From an uncultured Bradyrhizobium sp. (GTDB taxonomy: Bacteria > Pseudomonadota > Alphaproteobacteria > Rhizobiales > Xanthobacteraceae), in NCBI RefSeq assembly GCF_947648125.1, contig NZ_CANSMR010000004.1:62001-126000 (forward strand): a stretch of 64,000 nucleotides of DNA. The letters are read 5' to 3'. The stretch's first letter is position 1; each line of letters begins with the position of its first letter. Below, one piece after another: positions 818 to 13,023 of the stretch. Made by a program: the position numbers and the translations under genes. Below the pieces are notes generated by a model that was not told the origin of the DNA, searched no databases, and worked only from the letters and a program-made list of their open reading frames with translations.

Positions 818-1032
818 TAGTCCCCTCCATTGTTCTTGTCAGTATCGCCCCCGGCGACGGCCGCCGCGGCAGCCTCGGGTCCGTCGAGTTTGCGGATCAG
901 CTCCGCAAAGCGGTCGGGCACCCCCTGCCGCACCACGTCGTCGTACATGGCGCGAAGCTGGTGGCCGATTCTCGATTGAATCTCGGCGTTGAGACCGCCC
1001 TGCTTCTTTACTTCCTTCATGATCTGATCCAC
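817..1032 (-). CDS. nepR: Anti-sigma factor NepR
   Basis: A 71-residue protein read from a GTG at 1032, which has a GGGGAA ribosome site; an internal ATG at 1020 (MKEVKKQGG) is the alternative start. The core around residues 18-50 (IGHQLRAMYDDVVRQGVPDR) is the two-helix NepR signature that binds either EcfG or phosphorylated PhyR. The tail is low-complexity, alanine-, aspartate- and asparagine-rich. It is the first gene of the nepR-ecfG operon. The known mechanism is partner switching: phospho-PhyR captures NepR and frees EcfG. The length is normal for the family. Confidence 0.93.
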   Translation of the reverse strand: MDQIMKEVKKQGGLNAEIQSRIGHQLRAMYDDVVRQGVPDRFAELIRKLDGPEAAAAAVAGGDTDKNNGGD

Positions 1033-1116: not shown

Positions 1117-1141
1117 AATGCAAAGTTGCGCAGAAAGTTCC
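1117..1141 (-). promoter_or_regulatory. Candidate sigma-EcfG promoter of nepR-ecfG
   Basis: On the minus strand GGAAC at 1141-1137 is followed, after 16 nt, by CATT at 1120-1117. The consensus -10 is CGTT, so there is one mismatch. It lies about 85-100 nt upstream of nepR. Autoregulation of nepR-ecfG by EcfG is known in related bacteria; the assignment here is by motif only. Confidence 0.5.
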
Positions 1142-1162
1142 GGAACGCTGGAACTATTTCGT

Positions 1163-1187
1163 GGAACTTTTCCGGCGCTCGCGCGTA
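1163..1187 (+). promoter_or_regulatory. Candidate sigma-EcfG promoter of phyR
   Basis: GGAAC at 1163-1167 is followed after 16 nt by CGTA at 1184-1187 (one mismatch to CGTT). Two further GGAAC boxes lie just upstream at 1142-1146 and 1150-1154, but without a correctly spaced -10. The site is about 100 nt upstream of the phyR ATG, in the nepR/phyR divergent spacer. Confidence 0.5.
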
Positions 1188-1286
1188 GTCGGGCATGCAG
1201 GGGAACCGGGGTTGCCCCAAAAAATGGTACGCCGCCCCAGAGTACGGGTTTCAGGCCGGTTGGCCTAAGAACAGGATGGAGTGGGA

Positions 1287-2099
1287 ATGTCCCGATCGCA
1301 GATCGTTGCCGAACACCTTCCGCTGCTGCGCCGTTATGCGCGCGCACTGACCGGAAACCAGGCGTCCGGGGACGCCTATGTCGGGGCCATGCTCGAGGCC
1401 CTGTTGCAGGACGGATCGTTGCTGGACCAGACGCACGGCCCGCGCGCCGGCCTGTTTCGGCTGTTCACCCAGATCTGGAATTCGGTATCGGTGAACAACA
1501 ACGACAATGCCGACGTGGCGACGCTCTCGCTGCCGCCGGAGCGCCGGCTCTCCAACATCACGCCGCTGCCTCGGCAGGCTTTCCTGCTGCTGTCGTTGGA
1601 AGGCTTCTCGGAGGAGGAGGTCGGCTACATTCTCGGCACCGACATTGCCGAGACGCGCAAGCTGACCGATGCCGCCGGTCGCGAGATGGCCGCCGAGATC
1701 GCCACCGATGTCCTGATCATCGAGGACGAGACCTTCATCGCCATGGACCTCGAGAGCTTGGTGAAGAATCTCGGCCACAACGTCATCGGCGTTGCGCGCA
1801 CGCATTCCGATGCGGTGGCGCTCGCCAAGAACAAGAAGCCCGGCCTGATCCTCGCCGACATCCAGCTCGCCGACGGCTCGTCCGGCCTCGATGCGGTGAA
1901 TGAGCTGCTGCGCACCTTCGAGGTGCCGGTGGTGTTCATCACGGCCTATCCCGAGCGCTTCCTGACCGGCGAGCGGCCGGAGCCGGCGTTCCTGATCTCG
2001 AAGCCGTTCCAGCCGGCGATGGTGTCGGCGGTGGCGAGCCAGGCGCTGTTTTTCCAGCGCAACTCGCGCAACCGCACGCCGCGTGCGGCATCGGCATGA
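1287..2099 (+). CDS. phyR: Response regulator PhyR (sigma-like plus receiver domains)
   Basis: A 270-residue protein. The N-terminal half (about 1-135) is a sigma-factor mimic with a region-4-like segment LSLEGFSEEEVGYILGTDI. The C-terminal half (about 140-260) is a receiver domain with acidic residues in VLIIEDE, the phosphoacceptor Asp191 in LILADIQLADG, and the conserved lysine in FLISKPF. When phosphorylated it binds NepR through the sigma-like domain and releases EcfG. I chose ATG 1287; a GTG at 1281 in the same frame would add two residues. It is divergent from nepR-ecfG and ends in a strong terminator. Confidence 0.95.
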   Translation: MSRSQIVAEHLPLLRRYARALTGNQASGDAYVGAMLEALLQDGSLLDQTHGPRAGLFRLFTQIWNSVSVNNNDNADVATLSLPPERRLSNITPLPRQAFLLLSLEGFSEEEVGYILGTDIAETRKLTDAAGREMAAEIATDVLIIEDETFIAMDLESLVKNLGHNVIGVARTHSDAVALAKNKKPGLILADIQLADGSSGLDAVNELLRTFEVPVVFITAYPERFLTGERPEPAFLISKPFQPAMVSAVASQALFFQRNSRNRTPRAASA

Positions 2100-2130
2100 G
2101 CTGAGTTTACGCAAGAGGGCAAAATGCAAG

Positions 2131-2160
2131 CCGGCGTACCGAGAGGTACGCCGGTTTTTT
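2131..2160 (+). terminator. Intrinsic terminator of phyR
   Basis: A perfect 10-bp stem (CCGGCGTACC with GGTACGCCGG) around a GAGA loop is followed directly by six T residues. It starts 31 nt after the phyR stop. Confidence 0.93.
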
Positions 2161-2192
2161 GTGAGGAAGGCTCCCGAGCGTGGTGCGCCAAG

Positions 2193-2340
2193 CTACTTGC
2201 TGACGACGCGGACCGGCATCGTGCTGAGCGCCCGCAGGCCCGAGCTGTCGCGGAAGGCAAAGGGGCCCGCAATGTCGAACTGCTTCACGCGGCTGGCGAG
2301 CGCTGCGATCACGGCCTCCGCCTCCAGCCGCGCTGATGCG
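2193..2340 (-). pseudogene. Cytochrome P450, C-terminal remnant
   Basis: The minus strand has an open segment of about 50 codons ending in TAG at 2193-2195. It reads ARLEAEAVIAALASRV and further on SSGLRALSTMPVRVV. This is the familiar C-terminus of bacterial P450s (LARLEAEVVI...LRGLASLPVR). Upstream residues resemble a decayed form of the heme-loop sequence (H.CLGA.LARLE), but the heme cysteine is not visible in place. No start codon or upstream part is present, and the EamA gene begins 50 nt further on. I read it as a gene relic. Confidence 0.6.
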
Positions 2341-2392
2341 GCATGCGCGCTGCGAAGTGGAATCGGCTGCCTCCGCCTGCTAAGCGCGCCCC

Positions 2393-3274
2393 ATGGATAC
2401 GACGCAACGCGACCGAACGATCGGCTTTCGCTGCCTGGTGGTGACGGCCTTCGGCTGGGCCCTGAACTGGCCGCTGATGAAGCTGCTGCTGCAGCAATGG
2501 CCGCCGCTGTTCGCCCGCGGGTTGGCTGGGACCTGCGCGGCGGTGATCCTGGGCACGCTGGCGCTGGCCCGCGGCCAGTCGCTTGCGGTGCCGCGCGAGG
2601 CGGTCCCGCGGCTGTTGTTCGCTTCGTTCACCAATGTCTTCGCCTGGATGGGCTTCGGCACCATCGCGATGAAATTCGTCACGGTCGGCGAGGGCGCGCT
2701 CCTCGCCTACACCATGCCGATCTGGGCGATGCTGTTCGCCTGGCCGGTGCTGCACAGCCGCCCGACGCTGCGGGATCTGGCGGCGCTGGTGCTCGGCGTC
2801 GCCGGTGTCGCGCTCCTGCTCGGCGGCAACGGCTTTGCGTTCAGCGCCGACAAGCTCACTGGTATAGCGCTGGCGCTCGCCTGCGCCATCCTGTTCGCGC
2901 TCGGCAACGTGCTGAACCGCAAGCCGCTGCCGATGCCGCCGCTCGCGGTGGTCGCCTGGCAGGTCGGCATCGGCTGTCTCGTGATGCTGCTGCTCGGCGT
3001 TCTGTTCGAGCACCCGAATTATGCCGCGATCACGCCGTTCGGCCTCGGCTGCTTCGCCTATATGACGCTGATGCCGATGGGCATCTGCTATCTCACCTGG
3101 TTCGAGACGCTGCGCCGCCTGCCGCCGACATCGGCGTCGACCGGCATGCTGCTGGTGCCGGTCATCGGCGTGATTTCGGCCGCGATCATTCTCGGCGAGC
3201 CCCTGGGCCTGCGTGAGATCGGCGCGATGGCGCTGACGCTCGGCGGCGTGACGCTGGCGCTGCAGCGGGCATGA
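2393..3274 (+). CDS. EamA-family (DMT) transporter
   Basis: A 293-residue inner-membrane protein with about ten hydrophobic segments in two repeated halves (roughly 10-135 and 150-290), the usual EamA architecture and length. Characteristic features are the EamA-type turn after helix 1 (FGWALNWPLMK) and the ILGEPLGLREIGA segment in the second half. These proteins export metabolites or amino acids, but the substrate cannot be told from sequence. It stands alone between the phyR terminator and a small stress gene. A second EamA gene lies at 6226. Confidence 0.85.
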   Translation: MDTTQRDRTIGFRCLVVTAFGWALNWPLMKLLLQQWPPLFARGLAGTCAAVILGTLALARGQSLAVPREAVPRLLFASFTNVFAWMGFGTIAMKFVTVGEGALLAYTMPIWAMLFAWPVLHSRPTLRDLAALVLGVAGVALLLGGNGFAFSADKLTGIALALACAILFALGNVLNRKPLPMPPLAVVAWQVGIGCLVMLLLGVLFEHPNYAAITPFGLGCFAYMTLMPMGICYLTWFETLRRLPPTSASTGMLLVPVIGVISAAIILGEPLGLREIGAMALTLGGVTLALQRA

Positions 3275-3287
3275 GTTGCCGGTCGAG

Positions 3288-3312
3288 GGAACCGACGTGC
3301 ACGAGCCGCGTT
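3288..3312 (+). promoter_or_regulatory. Sigma-EcfG promoter of the 46-aa protein gene
   Basis: GGAAC at 3288-3292, 16 nt, CGTT at 3309-3312: an exact consensus match. The ATG at 3335 lies 22 nt after the -10 box, with a GGGAG ribosome site between them. Confidence 0.78.
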
Positions 3313-3334
3313 CTCCTGAAAAGGGAGCTTAGCC

Positions 3335-3475
3335 ATGCGCAAGGCGATCGCGCGGCTTGATGCGGAGCAGAAGGCGCAACTGCTTTATCTCGCAGATCTC
3401 GGAACGGCGATGTTTACCTCGGCGCTCGTGGTCTGCACGCTGAAAGCGGTCGTGGACCTGTTCGTCGCCGGCTGA
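3335..3475 (+). CDS. Small stress-linked membrane protein (46 aa)
   Basis: A 46-residue frame starting MRKAIARLDAEQK and ending in one hydrophobic helix (MFTSALVVCTLKAVVDLFV). AAGGGAGC lies at good distance before the ATG. An exact EcfG-type promoter stands directly upstream, which is the main argument that this short frame is a gene. I do not recognise a family. The layout (short charged amphipathic N-terminus, C-terminal membrane helix) suggests a small inner-membrane protein induced in the general stress response; that role is inference. Confidence 0.65.
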   Translation: MRKAIARLDAEQKAQLLYLADLGTAMFTSALVVCTLKAVVDLFVAG

Positions 3476-3501
3476 ACCGCCGCACCAGCGCCAACGCGCC
3501 G

Positions 3502-3744
3502 TCACTCCTCCTGCGGCGCGTCGCCTTGGGTGTGGCCATCCGGCCCCCGGTTAAACACCCCATACTCGCTCGACTTCACCCCCGCGCCTCCATCGACGCC
3601 GTTGCCGGCCAGACCGAGCCTGAGCAGCTCGCGGACCGCCGCGGCACGGGTCGGCATGCGGTGCTTGAAGCGGAAATCGTCGAGAGCCGATAATTCTTCA
3701 GGAGAGAGCATGACTTGAAGACGTTCAGCGCGAAGCTCATTCAT
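3502..3744 (-). CDS. Ribbon-helix-helix (CopG-like) protein
   Basis: An 80-residue protein. Residues 5-45 (ERLQVMLSPEELSALDDFRF followed by KHRMPTRAAAVRELLRLGL) have the strand-helix-helix pattern of CopG/Arc-type DNA-binding domains. The C-terminal 35 residues are polar and probably disordered. No toxin partner is adjacent, so a plain regulator is more likely than an antitoxin. It is transcribed from an exact EcfG-type promoter at 3784-3808, which would make it a second-tier stress regulator. Confidence 0.8.
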   Translation of the reverse strand: MNELRAERLQVMLSPEELSALDDFRFKHRMPTRAAAVRELLRLGLAGNGVDGGAGVKSSEYGVFNRGPDGHTQGDAPQEE

Positions 3745-3783
3745 CGCAAATCGCCCAGAATTAGTTAGTTGAGTATTTTGCTA

Positions 3784-3808
3784 AACGAGCCAAGTCGCGG
3801 CGGGTTCC
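3784..3808 (-). promoter_or_regulatory. Sigma-EcfG promoter of the RHH gene
   Basis: On the minus strand GGAAC at 3808-3804, 16 nt, CGTT at 3787-3784: exact consensus, 39 nt before the start codon. Confidence 0.78.
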
Positions 3809-3879
3809 ACAGATTGAGACAAAAACACCGATTGAGCAAGTTTATCAAATTATATCAATGACTTACTAGAAAAATTAGA

Positions 3880-3905
3880 GGAACGGTCCGGCTGCCTTTC
3901 GCGTT
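3880..3905 (+). promoter_or_regulatory. Sigma-EcfG promoter of the 58-aa protein gene
   Basis: GGAAC at 3880-3884, 17 nt, CGTT at 3902-3905: exact consensus with the longer allowed spacer. The ATG at 3925 follows a GGGAG site at 3913-3917. The preceding 100 nt (3780-3880) are markedly AT-rich compared with the rest of the window. Confidence 0.78.
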
Positions 3906-3924
3906 ATGTTGCGGGAGTGACGCC

Positions 3925-4101
3925 ATGACCAACCACGTCAAGCTGCCCCGCAAGCTATCCGAGGAGCCGGAAGCGCCGGAACCGCGGCGCCCGAGCCACG
4001 CACGGGTGATCGATCAACTGGACCGCTGGGCCAACAGTCCCGGTCTTCAACCGCCAAGGGTGAGTGATGCAGAAGACGATTCAGAAGCGGAAGCGATCTG
4101 A
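3925..4101 (+). CDS. Small acidic protein (58 aa), unknown function
   Basis: A 58-residue frame, MTNHVKLPRKLSEEPEAPEP at the start, very rich in Glu, Asp, Pro and Arg, with no membrane helix. It is supported by an exact EcfG-type promoter and a GGGAG ribosome site. The 3' end overlaps the next small gene by 35 nt in another frame, suggesting a two-gene unit. I recognise no family; it is likely disordered. Confidence 0.6.
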   Translation: MTNHVKLPRKLSEEPEAPEPRRPSHARVIDQLDRWANSPGLQPPRVSDAEDDSEAEAI

Positions 4102-4261
4102 GCCCCACACGTTCGAGCAGCGGCTCGACGAACACCGGGCGCGGCTCGAGCGCCAGCTCGCGGAATTGCCGCGCGGCGTCAAGCGCCAACAGATTGCCGC
4201 GCGGATCGAACAGCTGCGGACCGCCGTCGAGCTGAACGCGATGCTGTCGATGAGCGAATGA
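4067..4261 (+). CDS. Small coiled-coil protein (64 aa)
   Basis: From ATG 4067 the frame gives 64 residues (a GTG at 4064 would add one). The composition is highly charged with heptad-like leucines (FEQRLDEHRARLERQLAEL, then IAARIEQLRTAVELNAML), so a helical coiled coil is likely. It overlaps the upstream 58-aa gene and is probably co-transcribed from the same EcfG-type promoter. Function is unknown. Confidence 0.6.
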   Translation: MQKTIQKRKRSEPHTFEQRLDEHRARLERQLAELPRGVKRQQIAARIEQLRTAVELNAMLSMSE

Positions 4262-4318
4262 GCCAACACCGGCGCGGGATGCCCACTTGCTCCCGCCGCT
4301 GGGCGCGCCTACCATCCC

Positions 4319-4375
4319 TGCGTTGATGGGGATGGAGTCCCCCGATAACCGCCGCAAGGCTGATGACTCCTACCG
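4319..4375 (+). promoter_or_regulatory. Fluoride riboswitch (crcB motif)
   Basis: The sequence carries the conserved elements of the crcB RNA in order: GATGG followed by GAGTCCCCC, then GATAACCGCC, then GCTGATGACTCCTACC. These are the invariant parts of the fluoride aptamer. It lies 75 nt before a small membrane-protein gene and 245 nt before crcB, the fluoride exporter, so it should switch this operon on when fluoride enters the cell. Confidence 0.92.
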
Positions 4376-4397
4376 GGCGCGACAGCGTCGGTAGGAG
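4367..4397 (+). promoter_or_regulatory. Hairpin overlapping the riboswitch 3' end
   Basis: CTCCTACC (4367-4374) is perfectly complementary to GGTAGGAG (4390-4397) with a 15-nt loop. The left arm is the conserved 3' end of the fluoride aptamer, so hairpin and aptamer should exclude each other. There is no U-tract and the next ATG is 52 nt on, so the output mechanism is unclear. Confidence 0.55.
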
Positions 4398-4449
4398 CAT
4401 GCGCCACCGCCGATCCGCAGCGTGCCCCGCGAATGAGAAGGGGCAGAGC

Positions 4450-4623
4450 ATGACGGGTCTTCCTGGGTCACTCTCAATCGCATTGTCGCTGGTCGGGTCG
4501 ATCTGGCTCGTCGGTGTCGTCGCCTTGCTGGTCGGCGCCCCGGGCGAGCTGGTCGCCGCGACCTTCGTTGTTGGGTTGCTGGCGGGTTTTGCCGAGTGGC
4601 GAGCCGGAAAGGTGGAGCATTGA
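4450..4623 (+). CDS. Small membrane protein in the fluoride operon (57 aa)
   Basis: A 57-residue protein from ATG 4450, preceded by GAAGGGGC. It has two hydrophobic segments, LSIALSLVGSIWLVGVVALL and LVAATFVVGLLAGFA. It sits between the fluoride riboswitch and crcB, and its stop overlaps the crcB start (TTGA), so translation is probably coupled. I know no named family. The position suggests a role in fluoride resistance or in CrcB assembly, which is inference. Confidence 0.7.
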   Translation: MTGLPGSLSIALSLVGSIWLVGVVALLVGAPGELVAATFVVGLLAGFAEWRAGKVEH

Positions 4624-5006
4624 ACGTTCAATTGTTGGCGGCGGTCGCAATCGGCGGTTCGCTGGGATCGGTCGCGCGCTATCTGGTGGCGATCGGCGCA
4701 GGGCGCCTGGTCGGCACCGAATTTCCCTGGGGCACGCTAGTGATCAATATCGTGGGCTCGTTCCTGATCGGCGTCTTCGCGGAGTCCTTCGCGCTGAGCT
4801 GGAATGTCAGCCAGGCGGTGCGGGTGTTTCTCACCGTGGGCATCTGCGGCGGCTTCACCACCTTCTCGACCTTTTCGCTTGATGCGATCGTGCTGATGCA
4901 GCGGGGCGAGCTATGGTCGGCCGGCGCCTACATCGCAGCCTCCGTTGCGCTGTCGATCCTCGCGCTGTTCGGCGGCCTGCTGCTGGTGCGGGCGTTCGCG
5001 GCCTAG
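4620..5006 (+). CDS. crcB: Fluoride ion channel CrcB/Fluc
   Basis: A 128-residue protein with four membrane helices, the usual length of CrcB/Fluc. Diagnostic motifs are GGSLGSVARY near residue 10, FPWGTLVINIVGSF near 38-52, and GICGGFTTFSTFS near 75-87, which holds the phenylalanine-box and the TFSTF ion-path residues. It forms dimeric fluoride channels that expel fluoride. I chose the TTG at 4620 because it overlaps the upstream stop and has GGTGGAG just before it; a GTG at 4596 would give 8 extra residues. The gene is under the riboswitch at 4319. Confidence 0.93.
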   Translation: MNVQLLAAVAIGGSLGSVARYLVAIGAGRLVGTEFPWGTLVINIVGSFLIGVFAESFALSWNVSQAVRVFLTVGICGGFTTFSTFSLDAIVLMQRGELWSAGAYIAASVALSILALFGGLLLVRAFAA

Positions 5007-5176
5007 CCGGTGGAATCGCGGCCGGTGTGCGGGTTCGCGTCCGGTCCGCGCGGGCGCCGTTCCAAAAAAGTGAAGGGCTGGAGGTATCGCCTGCCGCCGG
5101 AATCCTTGGCGCGCCCGGGACCAGCCGGTAGGATGGAACCCGGATCGAGGTCAGGGACCAAGGGAGAGACTGGGGA

Positions 5177-5398
5177 ATGAAGCATGTCGACGTCGCGGTG
5201 ATTGCTGCCACGTTGTGGCTGCTGGCGTCGATGGTGCTGGACATCCTGACGCCGAAGTCGATCACCGCGCTGATGATCGCCGCCGCGCTCGCCCCGCCGT
5301 TCCTGATCGGGATCGGCATCCATTTCGCACGCGAATATTTCAAGGCGAAGCGGCGCAGCTACCCGCCGCCGCGGTTGGACGAACACTTCGAGAACTAA
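5177..5398 (+). CDS. Small membrane protein (73 aa), unknown
   Basis: A 73-residue protein with two hydrophobic helices (VAVIAATLWLLASMVLDIL and ITALMIAAALAPPFLIGIGI) and a basic, proline-rich C-terminus (KAKRRSYPPPRLDEHFEN). An AGGGAGAGA site lies before the ATG. It stands alone between crcB and the transglutaminase-like gene. I recognise no family. Confidence 0.7.
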   Translation: MKHVDVAVIAATLWLLASMVLDILTPKSITALMIAAALAPPFLIGIGIHFAREYFKAKRRSYPPPRLDEHFEN

Positions 5399-5469
5399 GC
5401 GCAGCAGGTCTGCAAGACGGGTTGCACTTGCTGCATTGAACTGCGTCGATGGCTTGTTAAGCTCGTGCC

Positions 5470-6150
5470 ATGACCGAGCATCTCCCCGATACGATCAGCC
5501 GCCTCTACACCGACCCCGGCGAATATGTCGACAGCGACCATCCCGCCGTCGAGGCCTTCGCCCGCGCTGCTGTCCCACCCGACGCCAGCGCACGCGACAA
5601 AGCGAGCCGGCTCTACACCGCGGTACGCGACGGCATCCGCTACAACCCCTATGTCAGCATGCGTTCGCCCGAGAGCTACCGGGCCTCCAGCGTGCTCGCC
5701 GCCGGCAATGGCTACTGCGTCGGCAAGGCGGCGCTCTACGCCGCGGCCTGCCGGGTCCACGGCATCCCGGCCCGGGTCGGCTTCGCCGATGTCCGCAATC
5801 ATCTCACCACCGAGAAGCTGCGCCAGAGCATGGGGTCGGACCTGTTCACCTGGCACGGCTTCACCGAAGTGTTCGTCGACGGCGCCTGGCGCAAGGCGAC
5901 CCCGACCTTCAACGACACGCTGTGCGCCAAGCTCGGCGTCAAGCCACTCGATTTCGACGGCCATTCGGATGCGCTGCTGCACCCGTTCGACGGCGCGGGG
6001 CGCGCCTACATGCAGTATGTCAACGACCACGGCACCTATCACGACGTCCCCGCCAAATTCCTGATGCGCGAGATGGCGCGCGAATACACCAACATGCAGG
6101 GCGAGGACATGTCCGGCCGCGACATGGAGCGCGAGGCGGCGGAGCAATAG
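5470..6150 (+). CDS. Transglutaminase-like protein
   Basis: A 226-residue cytoplasmic protein with the transglutaminase-like core: catalytic cysteine in GNGYCVGKAALYAAACR (near residue 82), the histidine in WHGFTEVFVDG, and an aspartate or asparagine further on in ATPTFND. The early segment AVRDGIRYNPY is also typical. Proteins of this group are papain-fold peptidases or cross-linking enzymes; the bacterial substrate is unknown. There is no signal peptide. No operon partner is evident. Confidence 0.85.
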   Translation: MTEHLPDTISRLYTDPGEYVDSDHPAVEAFARAAVPPDASARDKASRLYTAVRDGIRYNPYVSMRSPESYRASSVLAAGNGYCVGKAALYAAACRVHGIPARVGFADVRNHLTTEKLRQSMGSDLFTWHGFTEVFVDGAWRKATPTFNDTLCAKLGVKPLDFDGHSDALLHPFDGAGRAYMQYVNDHGTYHDVPAKFLMREMAREYTNMQGEDMSGRDMEREAAEQ

Positions 6151-6225
6151 CGCGGGCGCGCTGCGAACGCGGTGCGCTCACGGAAGCCATCCTGGCTGTA
6201 GGTGCGCCGGCTGAGGGGCGGTGTC

Positions 6226-7152
6226 ATGGATGCGGAGCTGCCGAAAGCTCAGGTGAGCCGCCCGGCCCCGGGCTGGGAGGACGCGGTCGCGCTGACCGGC
6301 TTCATCCTGGTCGCGGTCGGCCAGGCCTCCAACCAGGTGCTGGCGCGCGGCCTTGCCGGTTCGGTGCCGCCGTTCTCGCTGGCTTTCTTCCGCTGGAGCA
6401 TCATCGCCATCGGCCTCGCGCCGTTCGCGATCGCGGCGATCCGGGACGGCAAGATCCCGCTGGCGCAGAATTTCTGGCCGATCCTCGCCGCGGGCTTTCT
6501 CGGCATGTTCCTGTGCGGCGGCCCGGTCTACATCGCGGGTATCACCACCACCGCGATCCATATCGCGCTGATCTTCGCGCTGTCGCCGATCATGGTGCTG
6601 CTGATCTCGGCCGGGCTCGGCATCGAGCATATCGGTCCACTGCAATGGCTCGGCACGGCGCTGGCGCTCGCCGGTGCACTCTTGATCGTCTCGGGCGGCC
6701 ATCTGGAAACGCTGACGCAATCGAGCGCGGCCTGGGGCGATCTGCTGGTGGTGTGCGCGATGCTCGGCTGGTCCGGCTACACGCTGGTGCAATCGCGCGT
6801 CGCGCCGCGTGCTTCGCTGCTGGCGCGGGTCAGCCTGTTCTCGGCGGCCGGCGCGCTTTGCTCGCTGCCGCCGGCGCTCCAGGAGATGTGGGCGACGCCG
6901 GCTGCGGTGTTCAACGCCCGGGCGTTCGAGGCCTATGTCTTCGCCGGTCTCGTCCCGGGCCTGATCGCCTATGCCGGCTTCGCCTGGCTCGGCGCAAGGT
7001 TCGGCTCGGTGCGGACGTCGCTCGTGCTCTATGTCGCGCCAATCGCGAGCGCGCTGCTGTCCTGGATCATCCTTGGCGAGCCGCCGACGGTGATCCACCT
7101 GGTTGGCGGCTTGCTGATCCTCGGCGGCGTCTGGGCGAGCCTGCGCAAATAG
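6226..7152 (+). CDS. EamA-family (DMT) transporter
   Basis: A 308-residue membrane protein with ten predicted helices in two EamA repeats (about 20-150 and 165-305). It carries AVGQASNQVLARGLAG in helix 1 and IILGEPPTVIHLVGG in the last pair of helices. ATG 6226 is preferred over the upstream GTG at 6202 because GAGGGGCG precedes it. The substrate is unknown. It is only distantly similar to the EamA protein at 2393. Confidence 0.85.
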   Translation: MDAELPKAQVSRPAPGWEDAVALTGFILVAVGQASNQVLARGLAGSVPPFSLAFFRWSIIAIGLAPFAIAAIRDGKIPLAQNFWPILAAGFLGMFLCGGPVYIAGITTTAIHIALIFALSPIMVLLISAGLGIEHIGPLQWLGTALALAGALLIVSGGHLETLTQSSAAWGDLLVVCAMLGWSGYTLVQSRVAPRASLLARVSLFSAAGALCSLPPALQEMWATPAAVFNARAFEAYVFAGLVPGLIAYAGFAWLGARFGSVRTSLVLYVAPIASALLSWIILGEPPTVIHLVGGLLILGGVWASLRK

Positions 7153-7171
7153 ATCCAGCTCCTTCCGGGGT

Positions 7172-7196
7172 GGAACCTTTTCCGGCCTCGTGCGTT
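7172..7196 (+). promoter_or_regulatory. Sigma-EcfG promoter of the 59-aa protein gene
   Basis: GGAAC at 7172-7176, 16 nt, CGTT at 7193-7196: exact consensus, 38 nt before the ATG at 7235. Confidence 0.78.
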
Positions 7197-7234
7197 GAAT
7201 CCAACGTTGATTCAAGAGCTTAGTTGGAGGTCGT

Positions 7235-7414
7235 ATGAATCTTACTCCCGAGCAGCGCAAGGTCCGTAACGAGCAGCGTCAGCAAGACGCGTCGCAGGCG
7301 ATGAAGGAGCACCTCGCCCACGAGAAGGCGTTCTACGACAACTTCCACCGCCTCAAAGCCGAGCGGCAGGCGCGTGAAGCCGCGGAATCACGGAAGAAAT
7401 CCGCTGCGAAATAG
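7235..7414 (+). CDS. Small charged helical protein (59 aa), stress-linked
   Basis: A 59-residue protein beginning MNLTPEQRKVRNEQRQQDAS, composed almost wholly of Glu, Gln, Lys, Arg and Ala. It is probably one long helix and ends in KSAAK. GGAGG at 7227-7231 is a strong ribosome site, and an exact EcfG-type promoter stands upstream. I recognise no family. Soluble, hydrophilic and stress-induced are the only supportable descriptors. Confidence 0.72.
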   Translation: MNLTPEQRKVRNEQRQQDASQAMKEHLAHEKAFYDNFHRLKAERQAREAAESRKKSAAK

Positions 7415-7553
7415 GCGCCGGGAGCCACTCCCATCGTCCGGATTGCCCGGATCTGACAGACCGAGAAGGAGCGGAAGCGAGGGGGGCGAGCACGGCGCAA
7501 GTGAGTTCGCCCGAATGACGCGACGAAATCTCCAGGCTTATGGAGGACGTCAG

Positions 7554-7727
7554 ATGTATTTTGCCGATACGAAACCGGTCACTTGCAAATGCGGCGAACC
7601 CCTGAGCGAACTGATGCTCGTCGACGACCAGACGACCGAAATCACGTTTCATATCGGTCGTTGCCCGTCATGCCGTGAAGTGACGGTCGTTCGATCCCAG
7701 GACATGCCATCAAACGACAATGCCTGA
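7554..7727 (+). CDS. Small zinc-ribbon protein (57 aa)
   Basis: A 57-residue protein with two cysteine pairs, CKCGEP (C-x-C) near residue 11 and CPSCRE (C-x2-C) near residue 40, which fits a zinc ribbon. TGGAGGA precedes the ATG at 7554; an upstream in-frame ATG at 7515 lacks a ribosome site. No EcfG box was found before it, so it may be expressed independently of its neighbours. The role is unknown. Confidence 0.72.
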   Translation: MYFADTKPVTCKCGEPLSELMLVDDQTTEITFHIGRCPSCREVTVVRSQDMPSNDNA

Positions 7728-7832
7728 AGCGGGCGATCCTCTCGTTTGGCGGAAGGACCAGTCCTTTGTGTGTGACTTCCAATGCGCGAGATGAGTGACA
7801 GGCCGGCTGACGCATCGTTCACGGCAGGGCCG

Positions 7833-7875
7833 AAAAAAGAGCAGGGCGCGACCGGCATCACCACGGTCGCGCCCT
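7833..7875 (-). terminator. Intrinsic terminator facing left with no gene feeding it
   Basis: An 11-bp perfect stem (7843-7853 with 7865-7875, AGGGCGCGACC and its complement) has an 11-nt loop. On the minus strand it is followed by a run of six T (7838-7833). On the plus strand there is no T-run. No minus-strand coding sequence lies to the right before 8600, so it may end a small RNA. The rest of the 7728-8068 gap shows only the candidate promoter at 7995. Confidence 0.6.
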
Positions 7876-7994
7876 ACGTCGCCGGTCAATGGGGCAGGGG
7901 GAATAACCGGCTCTTCCAATGACTCGCAGACCCCCGGACTCGTTCCGCGCGAATCAAAATTTTTTCGTACACGGTTAAGTGATGGCTGGACGCG

Positions 7995-8020
7995 AGAACC
8001 CCACAGGTTTCGTTCGCGTT
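7995..8020 (+). promoter_or_regulatory. Possible sigma-EcfG promoter (one mismatch)
   Basis: AGAAC at 7995-7999, 17 nt, CGTT at 8017-8020. The first base of the -35 deviates from GGAAC. It is 48 nt upstream of the ATG at 8069. Confidence 0.35.
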
Positions 8021-8068
8021 GTGTCCGTGATCGCCAAAGGGAATTTCCATGGGGCGAGGGACATCACC

Positions 8069-8461
8069 ATGTCAAATATTCAAAAGGGAATTTTCGCTGC
8101 GTTGGCGGCTGGGCTGACGCTGGGCGCGGTCCAGCTGGCGTCCGGCCACGATCTCATTGGCGGGCAGCAGGTCACCACCGCTTTGGCGCCGGAGAGCGCG
8201 GTCAATCGGGCCGCCAAGACCGATCGTGCCGCGGTTCCGATTGCCGCCCTGCCGAGCCGGACCGTCGCGCTGAAGCTTGATCGGCTTCCCGATACGTCGG
8301 TCCTGGTCCGCGTTCCCGTGGCGCGGGAAGAAGCTCGCAATCACCCTGCGGCGCCCGCCCGGGCGCGGCCCGGCGACACCCGCAAAGTGGCTTGCGAGCC
8401 CGTGGTCAGCGTCCTGACCGAAGTGGCCAAGCTGCTGCAGCCCGGCCGCTGCGTGACCTGA
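8069..8461 (+). CDS. Exported protein (130 aa), unknown function
   Basis: From ATG 8069 the frame gives 130 residues with a likely signal peptide (KGIFAALAAGLTLGAVQLAS). The mature part is basic and alanine/proline-rich and has two cysteines near the C-terminus (VACEPVVSVLTEVAKLL, GRCVT) that could form a disulfide in the periplasm. GCGAGGGAC precedes the start. The in-frame ATGs further upstream (7982, 8049) lack the signal-peptide arrangement. The fold is unknown. It may be stress-controlled through the imperfect box at 7995. Confidence 0.65.
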   Translation: MSNIQKGIFAALAAGLTLGAVQLASGHDLIGGQQVTTALAPESAVNRAAKTDRAAVPIAALPSRTVALKLDRLPDTSVLVRVPVAREEARNHPAAPARARPGDTRKVACEPVVSVLTEVAKLLQPGRCVT

Positions 8462-8477
8462 GCACCCCTTGAACGGT

Positions 8478-8580
8478 GTCATCGCCCGGCTTGACCGGGC
8501 GATCCAGTACGCCGCGGCCCATCGGCTCAACAATGACTGTCTCTGGAATACTGGATCGCCCGGTCAAGCCGGGCGATGAC
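8478..8580. repeat. Palindromic repeat family A, copy 1
   Basis: Two terminal hairpins (GCCCGG-loop-CCGGGC on each side) flank a core with GATCCAGTACGCCGCGG and TCTCTGGAATACTGGATC, which are themselves complementary. It fills the gap between convergent genes. Other copies are at 12882, 18129 and 46225. Confidence 0.85.
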
Positions 8581-8599
8581 AGCAGTGCTTGTTGGTGGG

Positions 8600-9049
8600 C
8601 TATTCCTCTTCGTCCGGCTTGCTGCTGCCGGCGGCGCTGCGGCTTGCCATCAGGCCGAGTGCGAGGCCGCCGACCGCCAGAATCGGGATCAGCCGCTTCA
8701 CGCCGATGGCGCGCACGATCTGCAGGCCGGTCGCGATCAATGCAGGGTCGGTGAGCATTGTTGCCGCGGCGGATTTCGCGGCCTTTGCCGCTTTCTCGGC
8801 ACGCCTCTGCATCTCGCGCTTGCGCACCATGTAAACGGCAATGGCGATCAGCGTGACGACCAGGAACACCGCGGCGCCGGACAAGCACGCCTCCACCGGA
8901 CCGTAGTGCTGCAGCACATAGACGAAGGCCGCCGCGCACAGGAAGGCGATGGTGACGAACAGCGCCATCGCGGCGGCAGCCGCAAGCGATGTCAGCCGCA
9001 GCGCGCTGCCGGTGGATTGCTTGACGTCATCGATCAGCCGCTGAAGCAT
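8600..9049 (-). CDS. Holin-X-like (YqjE-type) membrane protein
   Basis: A 149-residue protein from ATG 9049 (MLQRLIDDVKQS). It has an amphipathic N-terminus, two hydrophobic helices (about 20-45 and 55-80), a charged segment (RKREMQRRAEKAAKAAK), a third hydrophobic stretch (LIPILAVGGLALGLMAS) and an acidic end. This layout matches the phage-holin-3_6/YqjE group that accompanies DUF883 proteins. It follows the DUF883 gene in the same direction, and no promoter was seen in between, so both probably share the EcfG promoter at 9575. A role in envelope stress is inferred. Confidence 0.75.
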   Translation of the reverse strand: MLQRLIDDVKQSTGSALRLTSLAAAAAMALFVTIAFLCAAAFVYVLQHYGPVEACLSGAAVFLVVTLIAIAVYMVRKREMQRRAEKAAKAAKSAAATMLTDPALIATGLQIVRAIGVKRLIPILAVGGLALGLMASRSAAGSSKPDEEE

Positions 9050-9167
9050 TGACCAACCTTGTCCTGAAAAGCTCTGCTTTGAATCTTGCCTTGAAGAGCG
9101 CATCGACAAACGAGGTGGCGGCGCGCCAGCGCTGCCATCGCGTCCAGAGCGGTGGTTTGCGCATGAC

Positions 9168-9539
9168 CTAGCGCCGCCAGGTGAGGCCGATCAAAAAGCC
9201 GAGGCCGAGCGCAAGGCCGACGGTCGCCAGCGGCCGCTGCGTGATCACCTCTTCCAGCGATTCCTCGATCGAGGATGCCGCATCCTGCGCCGCGCCCATC
9301 ATCGCGCTGCCGCGCTCCGACATGTCGTCGAGGGTCGATTCCGCGTTGGCGCGCGCATCCTTGTAGCGGCGGCGGGCCTGCTTGCCTGCGTTGTTGGCAA
9401 ACGAGTTGAGCGCGTCTGTGATCTGCTCGGTGAGGGCTGCGATATCGTTCTTCACGGCAGTGACATCCTTTTCGAGGCGTTCGTAGGTCGCTTTGTCGGT
9501 CATGTTCTTGATCCCAAATGCGCTGTCCGTGCTCGACAT
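9168..9539 (-). CDS. DUF883/ElaB-YqjD-family stress protein
   Basis: A 123-residue protein from ATG 9539, preceded by GGGAG on the minus strand. The N-terminal 90 residues are a long charged helix (YERLEKDVTAVKNDIAALTE and a second block with RRRYKDARANAESTLDD). The C-terminus has one membrane helix, RPLATVGLALGLGFLIGLTW followed by RR. That is the ElaB/YqjD/DUF883 plan: an inner-membrane C-tail-anchored protein that in E. coli binds ribosomes in stationary phase. It is driven by an exact EcfG-type promoter and precedes the holin-like gene. Confidence 0.85.
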   Translation of the reverse strand: MSSTDSAFGIKNMTDKATYERLEKDVTAVKNDIAALTEQITDALNSFANNAGKQARRRYKDARANAESTLDDMSERGSAMMGAAQDAASSIEESLEEVITQRPLATVGLALGLGFLIGLTWRR

Positions 9540-9574
9540 CGAAAGCTCCCGGAGAACGTGTGTGTCTGGAGAAA

Positions 9575-9599
9575 AACGCTTCGCATCGCGCAAGGTTCC
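9575..9599 (-). promoter_or_regulatory. Sigma-EcfG promoter of the DUF883 operon
   Basis: On the minus strand GGAAC at 9599-9595, 16 nt, CGTT at 9578-9575: exact consensus, 35 nt before the chosen ATG (9539). It overrules the longer start at 9593, which would lie inside the promoter. Confidence 0.8.
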
Positions 9600-9615
9600 A
9601 GATGCGAAACCGAGG

Positions 9616-10752
9616 TTAGCCGTCAGGCAGCTGCGGCGAATTGACCGGCATCAAATGCTCCTTCACGATCAACGCCACGATCAGCAGCGGCGACGACAGG
9701 AAGGCGCCCATCGGGCCCCACAGCCAGGTCCAGAACGCGAGCGCGAGAAAGACCGCGAGCGCATTCAGTGACAGCCTGCGGCCGACGATCGTCGGCGTCA
9801 CGAAATGTCCCTCCATGAAGGTCACGACCGCAAAGCACGCCGGCGCGATCAGCCCCGCGCCGATGGTCGGCGAGGAGATGATGCCGACCGCAACCAGCAC
9901 CACGAACATCGCGACCGGGCCGATGATCGGAATGAAGTTCAGCGTCGCGGCGAGCGCGCCGAGTCCGGCCGCGTTGGGCATGCCCGTCGCCGCGCAGATC
10001 GCACCGGTGACGATGCCGACGCCGGCATTGATCATGGTGACCGTCAGCAGATAGTTGCCGAGGTGGGTTTCGAGCTCGTTGAGGATTCGCAGCGTGCGCA
10101 GCCGCGCCGCGCGTTCGCTGAAGGTCATCACCAGGGCGCGGCGCAGATCCTTCCAGCTCGCGATGAACAGGATCAGGGTGGCAATGAACAGCAGGAATTC
10201 GGCGAAGGTCGGCGACAGGAATTCCAGCGTCGGCTGCACCCATTCGAATTTCGGCATCTGGAATGTCGCCAGCGTATCGGGGCCGCCGACCATGCTCTGC
10301 AGCTCCTGCCACAGTGCGAGCGGCCGGTCGAACACATGCAGCTTCTGCCTCAGGATGGCGCCGAGCTCGGGCAGCCGTGAGCTCCAGTCCATGACAGGCG
10401 AGGCGATCAGTCCGACCATGAAGCTGACCGCGGCGCCGACCGCGATCACGATCAGCACCGCGCCGACCGCGCGCGGGATCCGGTAGCGCTCGAGCAGGCT
10501 CGCCGCCGGCGACAGCATGGTGCCGACGATGAAGGCCATGGTGATTGGAAGGAAGACGGCGCGCGCGAGATAGAGCACTCCGACGATGACAATCACCAGC
10601 AGCGCGACCAGCGCGAAGGCGACGACCTCGGCGCGGCTGATCACCGGCGGCGTTTCAGCTTTGCTGTCGGGGAGGGGCGTGCCTTCGGGCGCGTTGCCAA
10701 GCATACGTTCACCCGGAAAGGCGCGCACCAGACTCCTCCCGAATGGGGACAA
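9616..10752 (-). CDS. AI-2E/PerM-family permease
   Basis: A 378-residue inner-membrane protein of the UPF0118/AI-2E family. It has an N-terminal pair of helices (VVAFALVALLVIVIVGVLYL), a central amphipathic segment, and a C-terminal block of helices with the signature region ATLNFIPIIGPVAMFVVLVA and GHFVTPTIVGRRLSLNALAV. Members export small molecules or act as sodium/proton exchangers; the substrate here is unknown. An exact EcfG-type promoter lies 29 nt upstream, placing it in the general stress regulon. Confidence 0.88.
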   Translation of the reverse strand: MSPFGRSLVRAFPGERMLGNAPEGTPLPDSKAETPPVISRAEVVAFALVALLVIVIVGVLYLARAVFLPITMAFIVGTMLSPAASLLERYRIPRAVGAVLIVIAVGAAVSFMVGLIASPVMDWSSRLPELGAILRQKLHVFDRPLALWQELQSMVGGPDTLATFQMPKFEWVQPTLEFLSPTFAEFLLFIATLILFIASWKDLRRALVMTFSERAARLRTLRILNELETHLGNYLLTVTMINAGVGIVTGAICAATGMPNAAGLGALAATLNFIPIIGPVAMFVVLVAVGIISSPTIGAGLIAPACFAVVTFMEGHFVTPTIVGRRLSLNALAVFLALAFWTWLWGPMGAFLSSPLLIVALIVKEHLMPVNSPQLPDG

Positions 10753-10780
10753 ATGAATTTCGCATCAAATTGCGCGTGAC

Positions 10781-10805
10781 AACGGCATTGCCCGGCAAAG
10801 GTTCC
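10781..10805 (-). promoter_or_regulatory. Sigma-EcfG promoter of the AI-2E-family permease gene
   Basis: On the minus strand GGAAC at 10805-10801, 16 nt, CGTT at 10784-10781: exact consensus. Confidence 0.8.
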
Positions 10806-10863
10806 ATCGCGCTCTCGTGAGACGCGCCGGGTTGACAATCGCGGCTTCACGACGATTCGCAAC

Positions 10864-10889
10864 GGAACTGTCTGATGGTCACGCGCGTT
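10864..10889 (+). promoter_or_regulatory. Sigma-EcfG promoter of the L,D-transpeptidase gene
   Basis: GGAAC at 10864-10868, 17 nt, CGTT at 10886-10889: exact consensus. It is divergent from the promoter at 10781 and only about 60 nt away. A start codon at 10875 would lie inside it, so the ATG at 10938 is the real start. Confidence 0.8.
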
Positions 10890-10937
10890 GGTTGGGCATC
10901 GCATCACCATGATGCGCATCCCGTCCAGGGGCAGCAC

Positions 10938-11768
10938 ATGACACAGCAGTCTCTCTCCAGCCGCCGGCTTGCGTCGCGCGCCGTGCGCACCTTTGCCTTC
11001 GCCAGCGTCCTGCTCGCGACGCCATTCATTATCGCCAATTCGGCCAGCGCCCAAGTCAGCGCTCAAGTCCGCTCGTCTGCGCTCGGCTATGCGTCCACCC
11101 AGCCGGGTGCTTTCCCCTCCGACGAGGTGATGAACGATCCTTCGGCCGGGGCCAGCGAGGACGGCGCGCTGCCGGAGCGGCTGCGCCGCACCACCGTCGC
11201 GCTCAACACAACAGAGGCGCCCGGCACCGTCATCATCGATACCGGCAACACCACGCTCTATTACGTGCTCGGCGGCGGCCGGGCGATCCGCTACGGCGTC
11301 GGCGTCGGCCGCGAAGGATTCACCTGGGCGGGCACCCAGACCATCAGCCGCAAGGCCGAGTGGCCGGACTGGCATCCGCCGGCCGAGATGATCAAGCGCC
11401 AGCCCTATCTGCCGCGCTTCATGGCCGGTGGCCCGGGCAACCCGCTTGGTGCCCGCGCGATGTATCTCGGCTCCAGCGAGTACCGCATCCATGGCACCAA
11501 CGATCCGTCGACGATCGGCAAGTTCGTGTCGTCGGGCTGCATCCGCCTGACCAATGAAGACGTCTCCGACCTGTTCAGCCGGGTCGATGTCGGGACCAGG
11601 GTGGTGGTGCTGCCGAAGAACGCGCCGCATCTTGCCGCACGCGAACTCGGCCCGAGCACGACGCAGATCTCGGTCCGGCCGGCGCCGATGCAGCCGCGCC
11701 CCGCGGTGATGACGCTGCCGTCCGGCCGTCAGGCGATGAACATCCCGGCGACTTCCCCGTTGTACTGA
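10938..11768 (+). CDS. L,D-transpeptidase (YkuD domain)
   Basis: A 276-residue exported protein. Residues 1-40 are a signal peptide (FAFASVLLATPFIIANSASA). The YkuD domain spans about 85-215 and has the histidine in RIHGTNDPSTIG and the catalytic cysteine in SSGCIRLTNEDV. It cross-links peptidoglycan stem peptides (3-3 links) or attaches proteins to them. The start at 10938 (AGGGGCAGC before it) is fixed by the EcfG promoter just upstream. Expression in the stress regulon suggests wall strengthening under stress. A tail of about 55 residues after the domain is proline/arginine-rich. Confidence 0.92.
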   Translation: MTQQSLSSRRLASRAVRTFAFASVLLATPFIIANSASAQVSAQVRSSALGYASTQPGAFPSDEVMNDPSAGASEDGALPERLRRTTVALNTTEAPGTVIIDTGNTTLYYVLGGGRAIRYGVGVGREGFTWAGTQTISRKAEWPDWHPPAEMIKRQPYLPRFMAGGPGNPLGARAMYLGSSEYRIHGTNDPSTIGKFVSSGCIRLTNEDVSDLFSRVDVGTRVVVLPKNAPHLAARELGPSTTQISVRPAPMQPRPAVMTLPSGRQAMNIPATSPLY

Positions 11769-11793
11769 GGAGTGTTGTAGCGAGGGGTCGGTG

Positions 11794-12423
11794 ATGGTGA
11801 AGCGATATTCCAGGCGGTTGGCGTTCGGGACGGCGGCATTGCTTGGCCTGTCCCTTGCGCCCGCTGCGCAAGCTCAGGATTTCTTCTCGCAGCTGTTCGG
11901 CGGCTTCATGCAGGGCCGTCCGCCGGTGATCCGGATGCCGTTCGATGATGGCCCGGCGCCAGTGCCGCGGGCCGAGCGGCGCGCGCGCTATGATGTCGGC
12001 CAGGCCTATTGCGTGCGCACCTGCGACGGCCGTTATTTCCCGCTGGCTGCGACCGGCAACCAGAGCAAGGCGGAGAGCTGCAACAGCTTCTGCCCGGCGA
12101 GTGCGACCGAAGTGGTTTATGGCGGCAACATCGACAACGCCGCGACGGAGGACGGCAAGCCCTATTCCGAGCTGCCGAATGCATTCCGTTATCGCGACGA
12201 GATCGTTTCGGGCTGCACTTGCAACGGCAAGGACCCTGTCGGGCTCGCCGCGGTGAAGATCGAGGACGATCCGACCTTGCGCAAGGGCGACATCGTCGCC
12301 GGCAAGGATGGGTTGATGTCGGTCGGCCGCGCAGACCGGCGCGGCGCATCTCTCAACTTCACGCCGGCGCCGGATCGCATCCGCGCCAAGTATCAGCGCG
12401 CGCCGGTGCTGGCGCGCGAATAG
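11794..12423 (+). CDS. DUF2865 exported protein
   Basis: A 209-residue protein with a signal peptide (LAFGTAALLGLSLAPAAQAQ). The mature part has six cysteines in a set pattern (AYCVRTCDGRYFPL, SCNSFCPAS, SGCTCNGKDP) typical of DUF2865, a family I know mainly from Rhizobiales. The periplasmic function is unknown. It starts 25 nt after the L,D-transpeptidase stop, and GCGAGGGG precedes the ATG, so the two are probably co-transcribed under the EcfG promoter at 10864. A wall-related role is inferred from that pairing. Confidence 0.82.
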   Translation: MVKRYSRRLAFGTAALLGLSLAPAAQAQDFFSQLFGGFMQGRPPVIRMPFDDGPAPVPRAERRARYDVGQAYCVRTCDGRYFPLAATGNQSKAESCNSFCPASATEVVYGGNIDNAATEDGKPYSELPNAFRYRDEIVSGCTCNGKDPVGLAAVKIEDDPTLRKGDIVAGKDGLMSVGRADRRGASLNFTPAPDRIRAKYQRAPVLARE

Positions 12424-12463
12424 CGTCGCTCACGCGAGATCGGCCGCTTCGGTTCCTTGGTCC

Positions 12464-12488
12464 GGAACCGGTCTTGCTCCTGCACGTT
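12464..12488 (+). promoter_or_regulatory. Sigma-EcfG promoter of the 51-aa protein gene
   Basis: GGAAC at 12464-12468, 16 nt, CGTT at 12485-12488: exact consensus, 47 nt before the ATG at 12536. Confidence 0.78.
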
Positions 12489-12535: not shown

Positions 12536-12691
12536 ATGCTCGTCGGCGTACTCGTCACCTTCCTTGTCATTATTCTCGTACTTTATCTCATCAACATGCT
12601 GCCGCTCGACGGCCGCGCCAAGCAGATCGCGCGCGTCGTCGTCATCATCATCGGCATCGTCTCGCTGCTGAAATATTTGGCGGTGTTCTAG
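12536..12691 (+). CDS. Small two-helix membrane protein (51 aa), stress-linked
   Basis: A 51-residue protein made of two hydrophobic helices (MLVGVLVTFLVIILVLYLIN and ARVVVIIIGIVSLLKYL) joined by the loop MLPLDGRAKQI. The hydrophobic hairpin with an LPLDGRAK-type loop recurs in small bacterial membrane proteins annotated as Thivi_2564-like; I recall this only as a family name and am not certain. CAGGGGGC precedes the ATG, and an exact EcfG-type promoter supports expression under stress. Confidence 0.75.
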   Translation: MLVGVLVTFLVIILVLYLINMLPLDGRAKQIARVVVIIIGIVSLLKYLAVF

Positions 12692-12814: not shown

Positions 12815-12881
12815 GTCGATGCAGCACCATGAGGATCTACAGTTTAGCCGCGAAACAAGAGGTATACCCTCGTCCACCGAT

Positions 12882-12983
12882 GTCATCGCCCGGCTCGACC
12901 GGGCGATCCAGTACGCCGCGGCTCTTCCGCTCAAGCACTGCGGTCTCTGGAATACTGGATCACCCGCATGCGCGGGTGATGAC
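12882..12983. repeat. Palindromic repeat family A, copy 2
   Basis: Same core as copy 1, but the right hairpin is changed to CACCCGC-loop-GCGGGTG, with both stem strands altered together so the hairpin is kept. Confidence 0.85.
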
Positions 12984-13023
12984 ACTGCGTGGTGTGACAC
13001 CTTGAATCGGGAACCATCCTCAT

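Follow-up and report, generated by a model that had tools for sequence, protein, structure and literature searches.

The phyR-nepR-ecfG locus and its exact EcfG sites

The window analyzed here is a 64-kb stretch (G000:C4:62001-126000) of the 8.57-Mb genome of an uncultured Bradyrhizobium sp., assembled in 71 contigs. Near its beginning lie the genes of the general stress response (GSR) regulators PhyR, NepR, and EcfG, and eight exact matches to the EcfG promoter pattern GGAAC-N16/17-CGTT are gathered beside them. ecfG, which encodes the general stress extracytoplasmic function (ECF) sigma factor (269..817, minus strand; Sigma70_r2 60.0 bits, Sigma70_r4_2 60.8 bits), and nepR, which encodes the anti-sigma factor (817..1032, minus strand; PF18557 58.3 bits), meet at 817 and form an apparent operon. 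phyR is divergently oriented (1281..2099, plus strand), likely starts at the ATG at 1287, and encodes a protein with sigma-like and receiver domains (PhyR_sigma2 83.7, PhyR_sigma-like 69.2, and Response_reg 47.2 bits). The EcfG protein matches generic sigma-70 families and shows similarity to PhyR_sigma2 (47.6 bits); its placement in group ECF15 leans on the position of its gene beside nepR. The three genes occur together in all 80 named loci. PhyR identity, taken alone, points to Bradyrhizobium strains such as B. macuxiense BR 10355 as the nearest named relatives.

A motif scan of both strands recovered all eight exact sites of the preliminary description, every one of them within 3288-12488, and no further exact match to GGAAC-N16/17-CGTT in the rest of the window. 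The spacer comprises 16 bases in six sites and 17 bases in two, and all eight lie outside called genes. On the correct strand, each site ends 20 to 49 nucleotides (nt) before a possible start codon (3335, 3744, 3925, 7235, 9539, 10752 as TTG, 10938, and 12536). The earlier statement that every site stands less than 60 nt from a start on the correct strand is accurate if the permease gene begins at this TTG; with its first ATG (10704), the distance becomes 77 nt, and the gene caller favors later starts for an 80-amino-acid (aa) open reading frame (ORF) and for the YkuD gene, which would place them 127 and 94 nt from their sites. Using the first possible starts, each downstream gene carries GGAAC-N16/17-CGTT within approximately 100 nt upstream, as expected of an EcfG regulon member. 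Three one-mismatch sites reported previously, at 1117, 1163, and 7995, were confirmed by the same scan. The first two face the regulator genes and are promoter candidates for nepR-ecfG (1117..1141, minus strand, -10 box CATT) and phyR (1163..1187, plus strand, -10 box CGTA).

Predicted target genes

Four predicted targets belong to recognizable families, and their sites were assigned through the motif scan together with conservation. On the minus strand, the site at 9575..9599 precedes a DUF883 gene (9168..9539), whose product scores above the PF05957 cut-off (33.3 bits) and below that of the NCBIfam ElaB model (27.8 vs 139 bits), and the site at 10781..10805 precedes an AI-2E family permease gene (9616..10752; PF01594 119 bits). 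On the plus strand, the site at 10864..10889 precedes a YkuD L,D-transpeptidase gene (10938..11768; PF03734 88.8 bits), and the site at 12464..12488 precedes the gene of a 51-aa membrane protein of the Thivi_2564 family (12536..12691; NF041949 58.3 bits, cut-off 33). A DUF2865 gene (11791..12423, plus strand; PF11064 118 bits) is probably read together with the YkuD gene. A membrane-like protein with weak similarity to Phage_holin_3_6 (17.7 bits vs a cut-off of 28.4) is encoded 3' of the DUF883 gene (8600..9049, minus strand).

The other exact sites precede small ORFs that are likewise predicted targets. The site at 3288..3312 (plus strand) lies before a 46-aa ORF (3335..3475, plus strand) without a Pfam or NCBIfam match and is exact in 18 of the 20 named loci having this ORF. 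An 80-aa ORF (3502..3744, minus strand), ribbon-helix-helix-like by eye and without a family match, follows the site at 3784..3808 (minus strand), which is exact in 11 of the 20 named loci with the 80-aa ORF. The site at 3880..3905 (plus strand; exact in 16 of the 20 named loci with the 58-aa ORF) precedes a 58-aa ORF (3925-4101) overlapped by a 65-aa ORF (4064-4261), both on the plus strand and without a family match. The 46-, 58-, and 80-aa ORFs are restricted to 20 of the 80 named loci. A 59-aa ORF (7235..7414, plus strand), with no family match above the cut-off, follows the site at 7172..7196 (plus strand), which has one mismatch in all four congeners tested. Additionally, a 130-aa ORF without a Pfam family (8069..8461, plus strand) is a probable target, with the one-mismatch site at 7995..8020 (plus strand) upstream of it. 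This site has at most one mismatch in 32 of 48 congeners and in 11 of 12 genomes of other genera, and in relatives the ORF occupies the interval from phyR to the DUF883 gene. The earlier remark that most targets are tiny or unannotated describes about half of the eight, since the DUF883, AI-2E permease, YkuD, and Thivi_2564 proteins are recognizable.

Two EamA transporters, a transglutaminase-like protein, and a few small genes are interspersed among the predicted targets, and none of them had an exact site in the congeners tested. Two similar palindromic intergenic repeats, resembling repetitive extragenic palindromes by eye, were observed at approximately 8475-8580 and 12880-12985 of the window.

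Site density and share of the predicted regulon

Genome-wide, the exact pattern occurs 122 times in 8.57 Mb, with a 16-base spacer in 76 cases and a 17-base spacer in 46. Eight of these sites fall within the 9.2 kb of the cluster, where approximately 0.13 would be expected; the density is 0.87 per kb inside vs approximately 0.013 per kb outside, a difference of about 65-fold. The densest other stretches of the genome hold three sites in 9.2 kb (contig C2) and four sites in 16 kb (contig C20). When the 122 sites were placed at random in 20,000 trials, the fullest 9.2-kb stretch contained at most six sites, a value reached in two runs, vs the eight observed. Chance clustering is ruled out by these whole-genome counts and the random-placement simulation, and the physical clustering proposed in the preliminary description is borne out.

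To place the cluster within the predicted regulon, the surroundings of all 114 noncluster sites were examined, with genes called by a codon model for which 14 genes of the locus served as the training set. Sites were considered promoter-like if they lay outside called genes and were followed on their own strand, within 150 nt, by a called start. Among the noncluster sites, 64 were outside called genes and 38 were promoter-like; random window positions fell outside genes in 15.4% and were promoter-like in 5.1% of cases, which leads to expectations of approximately 17.5 and 5.8 of 114. The gene caller accepted seven of the eight cluster sites, missing the 58-aa ORF at 3925. The cluster therefore represents 7 of 45 promoter-like exact sites (about one sixth), or approximately 18% once the 5.8 expected chance matches are deducted. 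The regulator and a good part of its regulon had been described as physically clustered: the clustering is far above background, but the share of the regulon is smaller than this wording implied. According to PMC8092242, the EcfG regulon of B. diazoefficiens exceeds 100 genes, and 72 target sequences from this species were used in PMC6599016. The cluster is a striking concentration of sites, yet it contains a minority of the exact promoter-like sites predicted in this genome.

Unbiased clustering of the genes downstream of sites was performed for 95 regions, to which 20 genomes contribute two regions each, and 243 of 299 sites were promoter-like. The families found under sites were DUF883 (50 regions), Thivi_2564 (44), YkuD (41), permease (29), CsbD (23), superoxide dismutase (11), and the 46-aa ORF (6); a further check confirmed the CsbD and dismutase families. 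In all 26 regions with both genes, CsbD and Thivi_2564 are 0.2 to 0.4 kb apart, and CsbD is also present in four distant-genus phyR regions; no CsbD relative turned up in the initial 20 kb of the window. Superoxide dismutase was considered as a close neighbor of relocated phyR genes and ruled out, being 14 to 16 kb away in all nine regions measured. As a separate observation, another Bradyrhizobium genome contains, far from phyR, 24 exact sites in 135 kb vs approximately three expected (G002:C1:990985-1125813; L085-L089). By eye, the genes under these sites, viewed over 100 of the 135 kb, include those for a dehydrogenase, a manganese catalase, two DUF892/YciF-like proteins, and a DNA ligase.

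Conservation of the sites in relatives

The phyR regions were taken from 54 congeners (G006, G016, G035, G045, and G058 are not among them; a search of 60 genomes found no PhyR ortholog in G006). The other-genus sample comprises 20 regions out of 61 genomes, the regions away from phyR comprise 20 out of 27 genomes, and the exact-site listing covers 55 of 60 genomes, with G000, G006, G016, G035, and G045 left out. The HWE and GGDEF rows, which showed 2 exact sites in 19 and 2 in 2, were left out of the first conservation set because their starts may fall outside the stretch taken, making the upstream slice wrong, and their shuffles were abnormal.

With the window itself left out, the site upstream of the DUF883 gene is exact in 25/25 congener phyR regions, 20/20 regions away from phyR, and 8/10 other-genus genomes. 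The corresponding values are 21/22, 16/20, and 8/9 for the YkuD gene and 19/19, 18/19, and 6/9 for the Thivi_2564 gene, and the permease site is exact in 16/23 congener phyR regions and 15/20 regions away from phyR. Among control genes in congeners, exact sites were found for none of 15 malate synthase, 25 holin-like, 5 EamA2, and 54 ecfG genes, and for 2 of 22 DUF2865 genes. Taken together, the 54 congener phyR regions contain 141 exact sites vs 19.4 expected from the genome-wide density, a sum free of circularity; the ratios for the six closest congeners (34 vs 1.7) and for 20 others with the core nearby (83 vs 7.8) are partly circular, as the groups were sorted by core presence. Furthermore, 34 exact sites vs 4.1 expected were found in the phyR regions of 12 nearer-genus genomes, and 34 vs 3.6 in those of eight more distant-genus genomes.

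The three one-mismatch sites gain weight from conservation only. The nepR-ecfG candidate deviates at one position in 33 of the 54 congeners and at two in the other 21, the phyR candidate has one mismatch in 41 of the 54, and each is exact in 6 of 20 other-genus genomes. The Bradyrhizobium candidates retain GGAAC; their -10 box is mostly CGTA or CGTC at phyR and CATT or AATT at nepR, and distant genera often have the exact CGTT. These variant -10 boxes may provide weaker or tuned feedback.

A neighboring HWE-family kinase

An HWE-family kinase gene occupies G000:C4:54133-55809, which is 6.2 kb outside the window on its upstream side and 7.5 kb from phyR. Its product contains PF07536 (HWE_HK, 82.9 bits) and CHASE domains and carries the motif sequence HRVKN. 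The preliminary description had reported no cognate sensor kinase, which is correct for the window itself and misleading for the genome; the negative stems from the window edge, beyond which this kinase lies. Kinase orthologs lie upstream in 48 of the 80 named PhyR loci, directly beside ecfG in 31, where the kinase start is 2.7 to 3.2 kb before phyR, and approximately 9 kb from phyR in 17. MauG-like, membrane, and GGDEF/EAL genes separate the kinase from ecfG in 17 of the 80 named loci (here G000:C4:55958-62029; L090:5958-12029). On the basis of its domains and position, this gene most likely encodes the cognate kinase acting on PhyR.

In wider stretches from the window's group, no EcfG-like site was found upstream of the kinase, the best matches having two to three mismatches. 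The other-genus kinases (L201-L212) present a different picture: in 11 of 11, a complete GGAAC box precedes the extrapolated start by 76 to 163 nt and is paired with a -10 box of zero to two mismatches, which suggests that the kinase may once have been an EcfG target. A one-mismatch kinase site in the clade with moved regulators was not used, as it lies 35 nt from the extrapolated start and may be coding.

Gene order and relocation of the regulators

In nearer genera (12 genomes from ten genera, PhyR at least 81% identical), the same gene order is found, often compactly within 9 kb. In 10 of these 12 genomes, phyR is bordered by the kinase gene and by a DUF883 or YkuD target; L204 lacks the kinase and L210 lacks the targets in the stretch examined. 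In other genera of the family, ureG and malate synthase border the core order. Among more distant genera (eight genomes from seven genera, PhyR below 75%), the kinase is absent nearby and clear target orthologs are mostly absent; exact sites stand at nepR in five and at phyR in six of the eight. Within the genus, phyR has the kinase and targets as flanking genes in 20 of 54 congeners, a count for which the kinase was sought only in the stretch taken (3 kb upstream), such that the window's group is counted as lacking it despite the distance of 7.5 kb.

The preliminary description called the locus an island. Horizontal acquisition of a stress island would fit the small-ORF block (3335-4261) confined to 20 of the 80 named loci and the three genes intervening between kinase and ecfG in 17 of 80. 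Nevertheless, the core order with its ureG and malate synthase flanks recurs in other genera and on several Bradyrhizobium branches, and a mobile island is rejected for the core on account of this conserved gene order, which makes such an origin very unlikely for the locus; the small-ORF block alone is restricted. The core, consisting of the kinase, the regulators, and the DUF883, permease, YkuD, and small membrane protein genes, with malate synthase as a nontarget flank, is old, and the extra small ORFs are present in only part of the genus.

The regulators and the predicted targets have also become separated. Nineteen congeners carry phyR at a distance from kinase and targets alike, yet in 19/19 the kinase and YkuD genes remain within 10 kb of each other. 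Of the 16 for which regions were available, 10 have the relocated phyR on the contig of these genes, separated by at least 0.9 Mb, and six have it on a different contig; the DUF883 site is exact in all 16 and the YkuD site in 13. The orthologs of the DUF883, permease, YkuD, Thivi_2564, and CsbD genes are likewise remote from phyR in the B. diazoefficiens group. The opposite arrangement was found in G017, G047, G007, G012, G024, and G001, where the kinase stays with phyR and the targets are far off or on another contig, and in G048 and G041 a gap of 28 to 32 kb within one contig separates the targets from phyR. In a combined PhyR and EcfG tree, the linked state is scattered over the outgroups and several Bradyrhizobium branches, and the 19 unlinked congeners fall within one set of 25 rows that also includes three linked genomes. 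The linked gene order appears to be ancestral; because the tree has 28 weakly supported forks and a midpoint root and the moved clade includes linked genomes, "ancestral" is a reading and the number of relocations is not fixed.

One explanation for this arrangement is that proximity itself has been selected, through faster or stronger induction by a local EcfG concentration, a shared gene dosage, or a shared domain. The flanking of phyR by kinase and targets in nearer genera and congeners is in line with this, as are the constant adjacency of CsbD to the Thivi_2564 gene and the exact site preceding CsbD in 23 of 95 regions. However, the regulators have moved away in 19 congeners while the kinase and YkuD genes stayed together, the sites persist away from phyR at the frequencies given above, and the distances from phyR range from 3 to more than 14 kb. 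We regard selected proximity as rather unlikely. A related proposal, to which we assign an equally low likelihood, is that the neighborhood is a long-lived accretion site where EcfG-controlled genes gather and stay because closeness helps induction, with the moved-regulator lineages having compensated elsewhere; lineages would then have gathered different stress genes, such as the small ORFs in the window's group and CsbD beside Thivi_2564 elsewhere. Since the kinase-target block and its exact sites persist where the regulators have moved, proximity looks inherited rather than required.

Discussion

We conclude with considerable confidence that the window contains a Bradyrhizobium GSR locus accompanied by a conserved neighborhood of predicted EcfG targets. 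The PhyR-NepR-EcfG partner switch is established (PMC8103513), and its operation at this locus can be proposed as follows. Under stress, an HRXXN-type (HWE) kinase, most likely the product of the gene 7.5 kb upstream of phyR, would phosphorylate PhyR; phosphorylated PhyR would capture NepR, and the EcfG thereby freed would guide RNA polymerase to GGAAC-N16/17-CGTT promoters. The eight sites are predicted to serve the 46-, 80-, 58/65-, and 59-aa ORFs, the DUF883 gene with its membrane-like partner, the permease gene, the YkuD and DUF2865 genes, and the Thivi_2564 gene, and the variant sites upstream of phyR and nepR-ecfG would probably create positive feedback. Both the use of these sites and the role of EcfG as the sigma factor reading them are inferred from sequence. 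A paralogous ECF sigma factor could instead read some of the promoters, given that EcfG paralogs with shared or separate targets are described for other Alphaproteobacteria in PMC8103513. The motif, however, fits the canonical EcfG boxes given in PMC8103513 and PMC6599016, and a local EcfG is encoded in the cluster itself, so that a paralog appears an unlikely reader.

Several observations weigh against the interpretation as a conserved neighborhood of EcfG targets. A reversed-pattern control is more common genome-wide than the exact pattern (160 vs 122), and a scattered single match is consequently weak evidence alone. One-mismatch sites are not enriched: the first 12.5 kb of the window has 8 and the remaining 51.5 kb has 36. 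Such similar densities inside and outside the cluster were the reason for dropping these counts as extra evidence. The site of the 59-aa ORF is exact in only 2 of the 11 named loci having the ORF, and that of the permease in none of eight other-genus genomes (one mismatch in five of the eight). The phyR and nepR sites depart from the consensus at the -10 box in congeners. Enrichment is only mild in the 24 congener phyR regions that lack the core (23 vs 8.6), and L037, L040, L043, and L044, of which L040 stops 2.5 kb past phyR, show no enrichment (1 vs 1.3 expected). With six HWE_HK matches in the genome, another kinase may act alongside the neighboring one or outweigh it. Moreover, the gene caller and the promoter-like criterion behind the one-sixth share are both home-made. 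The frequency of the exact pattern and its rarity relative to the reversed control would also suit the idea that the sites are chance or protein-coding coincidences. Nonetheless, their clustering exceeds that of 20,000 random placements, all eight avoid called genes, and they are conserved at the targets and mostly not at the controls, which renders coincidence extremely improbable.

The regulon of a global stress sigma factor is commonly thought of as dispersed. In part of this family, the likely kinase, the switch, and a fixed set of predicted targets occupy a single conserved neighborhood. The DUF883, YkuD, AI-2E permease, and Thivi_2564 proteins are candidates for a core of the response, and the neighboring kinase is a clear candidate for an input to the Bradyrhizobium stress response. 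Furthermore, the two natural break-ups, one in which the regulators moved and one in which the targets moved, offer ready comparisons for the effect of closeness on expression. The pathway is known; a conserved block of predicted targets at the GSR locus was not met in the literature searched, which did not include the main regulon paper, and it may already be in print.

The locus resembles the alphaproteobacterial PhyR-NepR-EcfG locus of, for example, B. diazoefficiens and Methylobacterium, whose layout is described in PMC8103513, in its divergent phyR and nepR-ecfG genes, domains, predicted GGAAC/CGTT-type promoters, and nearby HRXXN kinase. It differs in that a block of predicted targets extends on the phyR side and that, in the window's group, three genes part the kinase from ecfG. 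ECF sigma factors with a local regulon have their targets beside the sigma gene. EcfG is distinguished from these by its global reach, with 38 further promoter-like exact sites elsewhere in the genome, of which approximately six would be expected by chance. YqjD/ElaB and YjbJ/CsbD are general stress proteins controlled by RpoS and SigB. The families overlap with those found here, with DUF883 in this locus and CsbD beside the same block in other lineages, although the sigma factor and the cascade are different.

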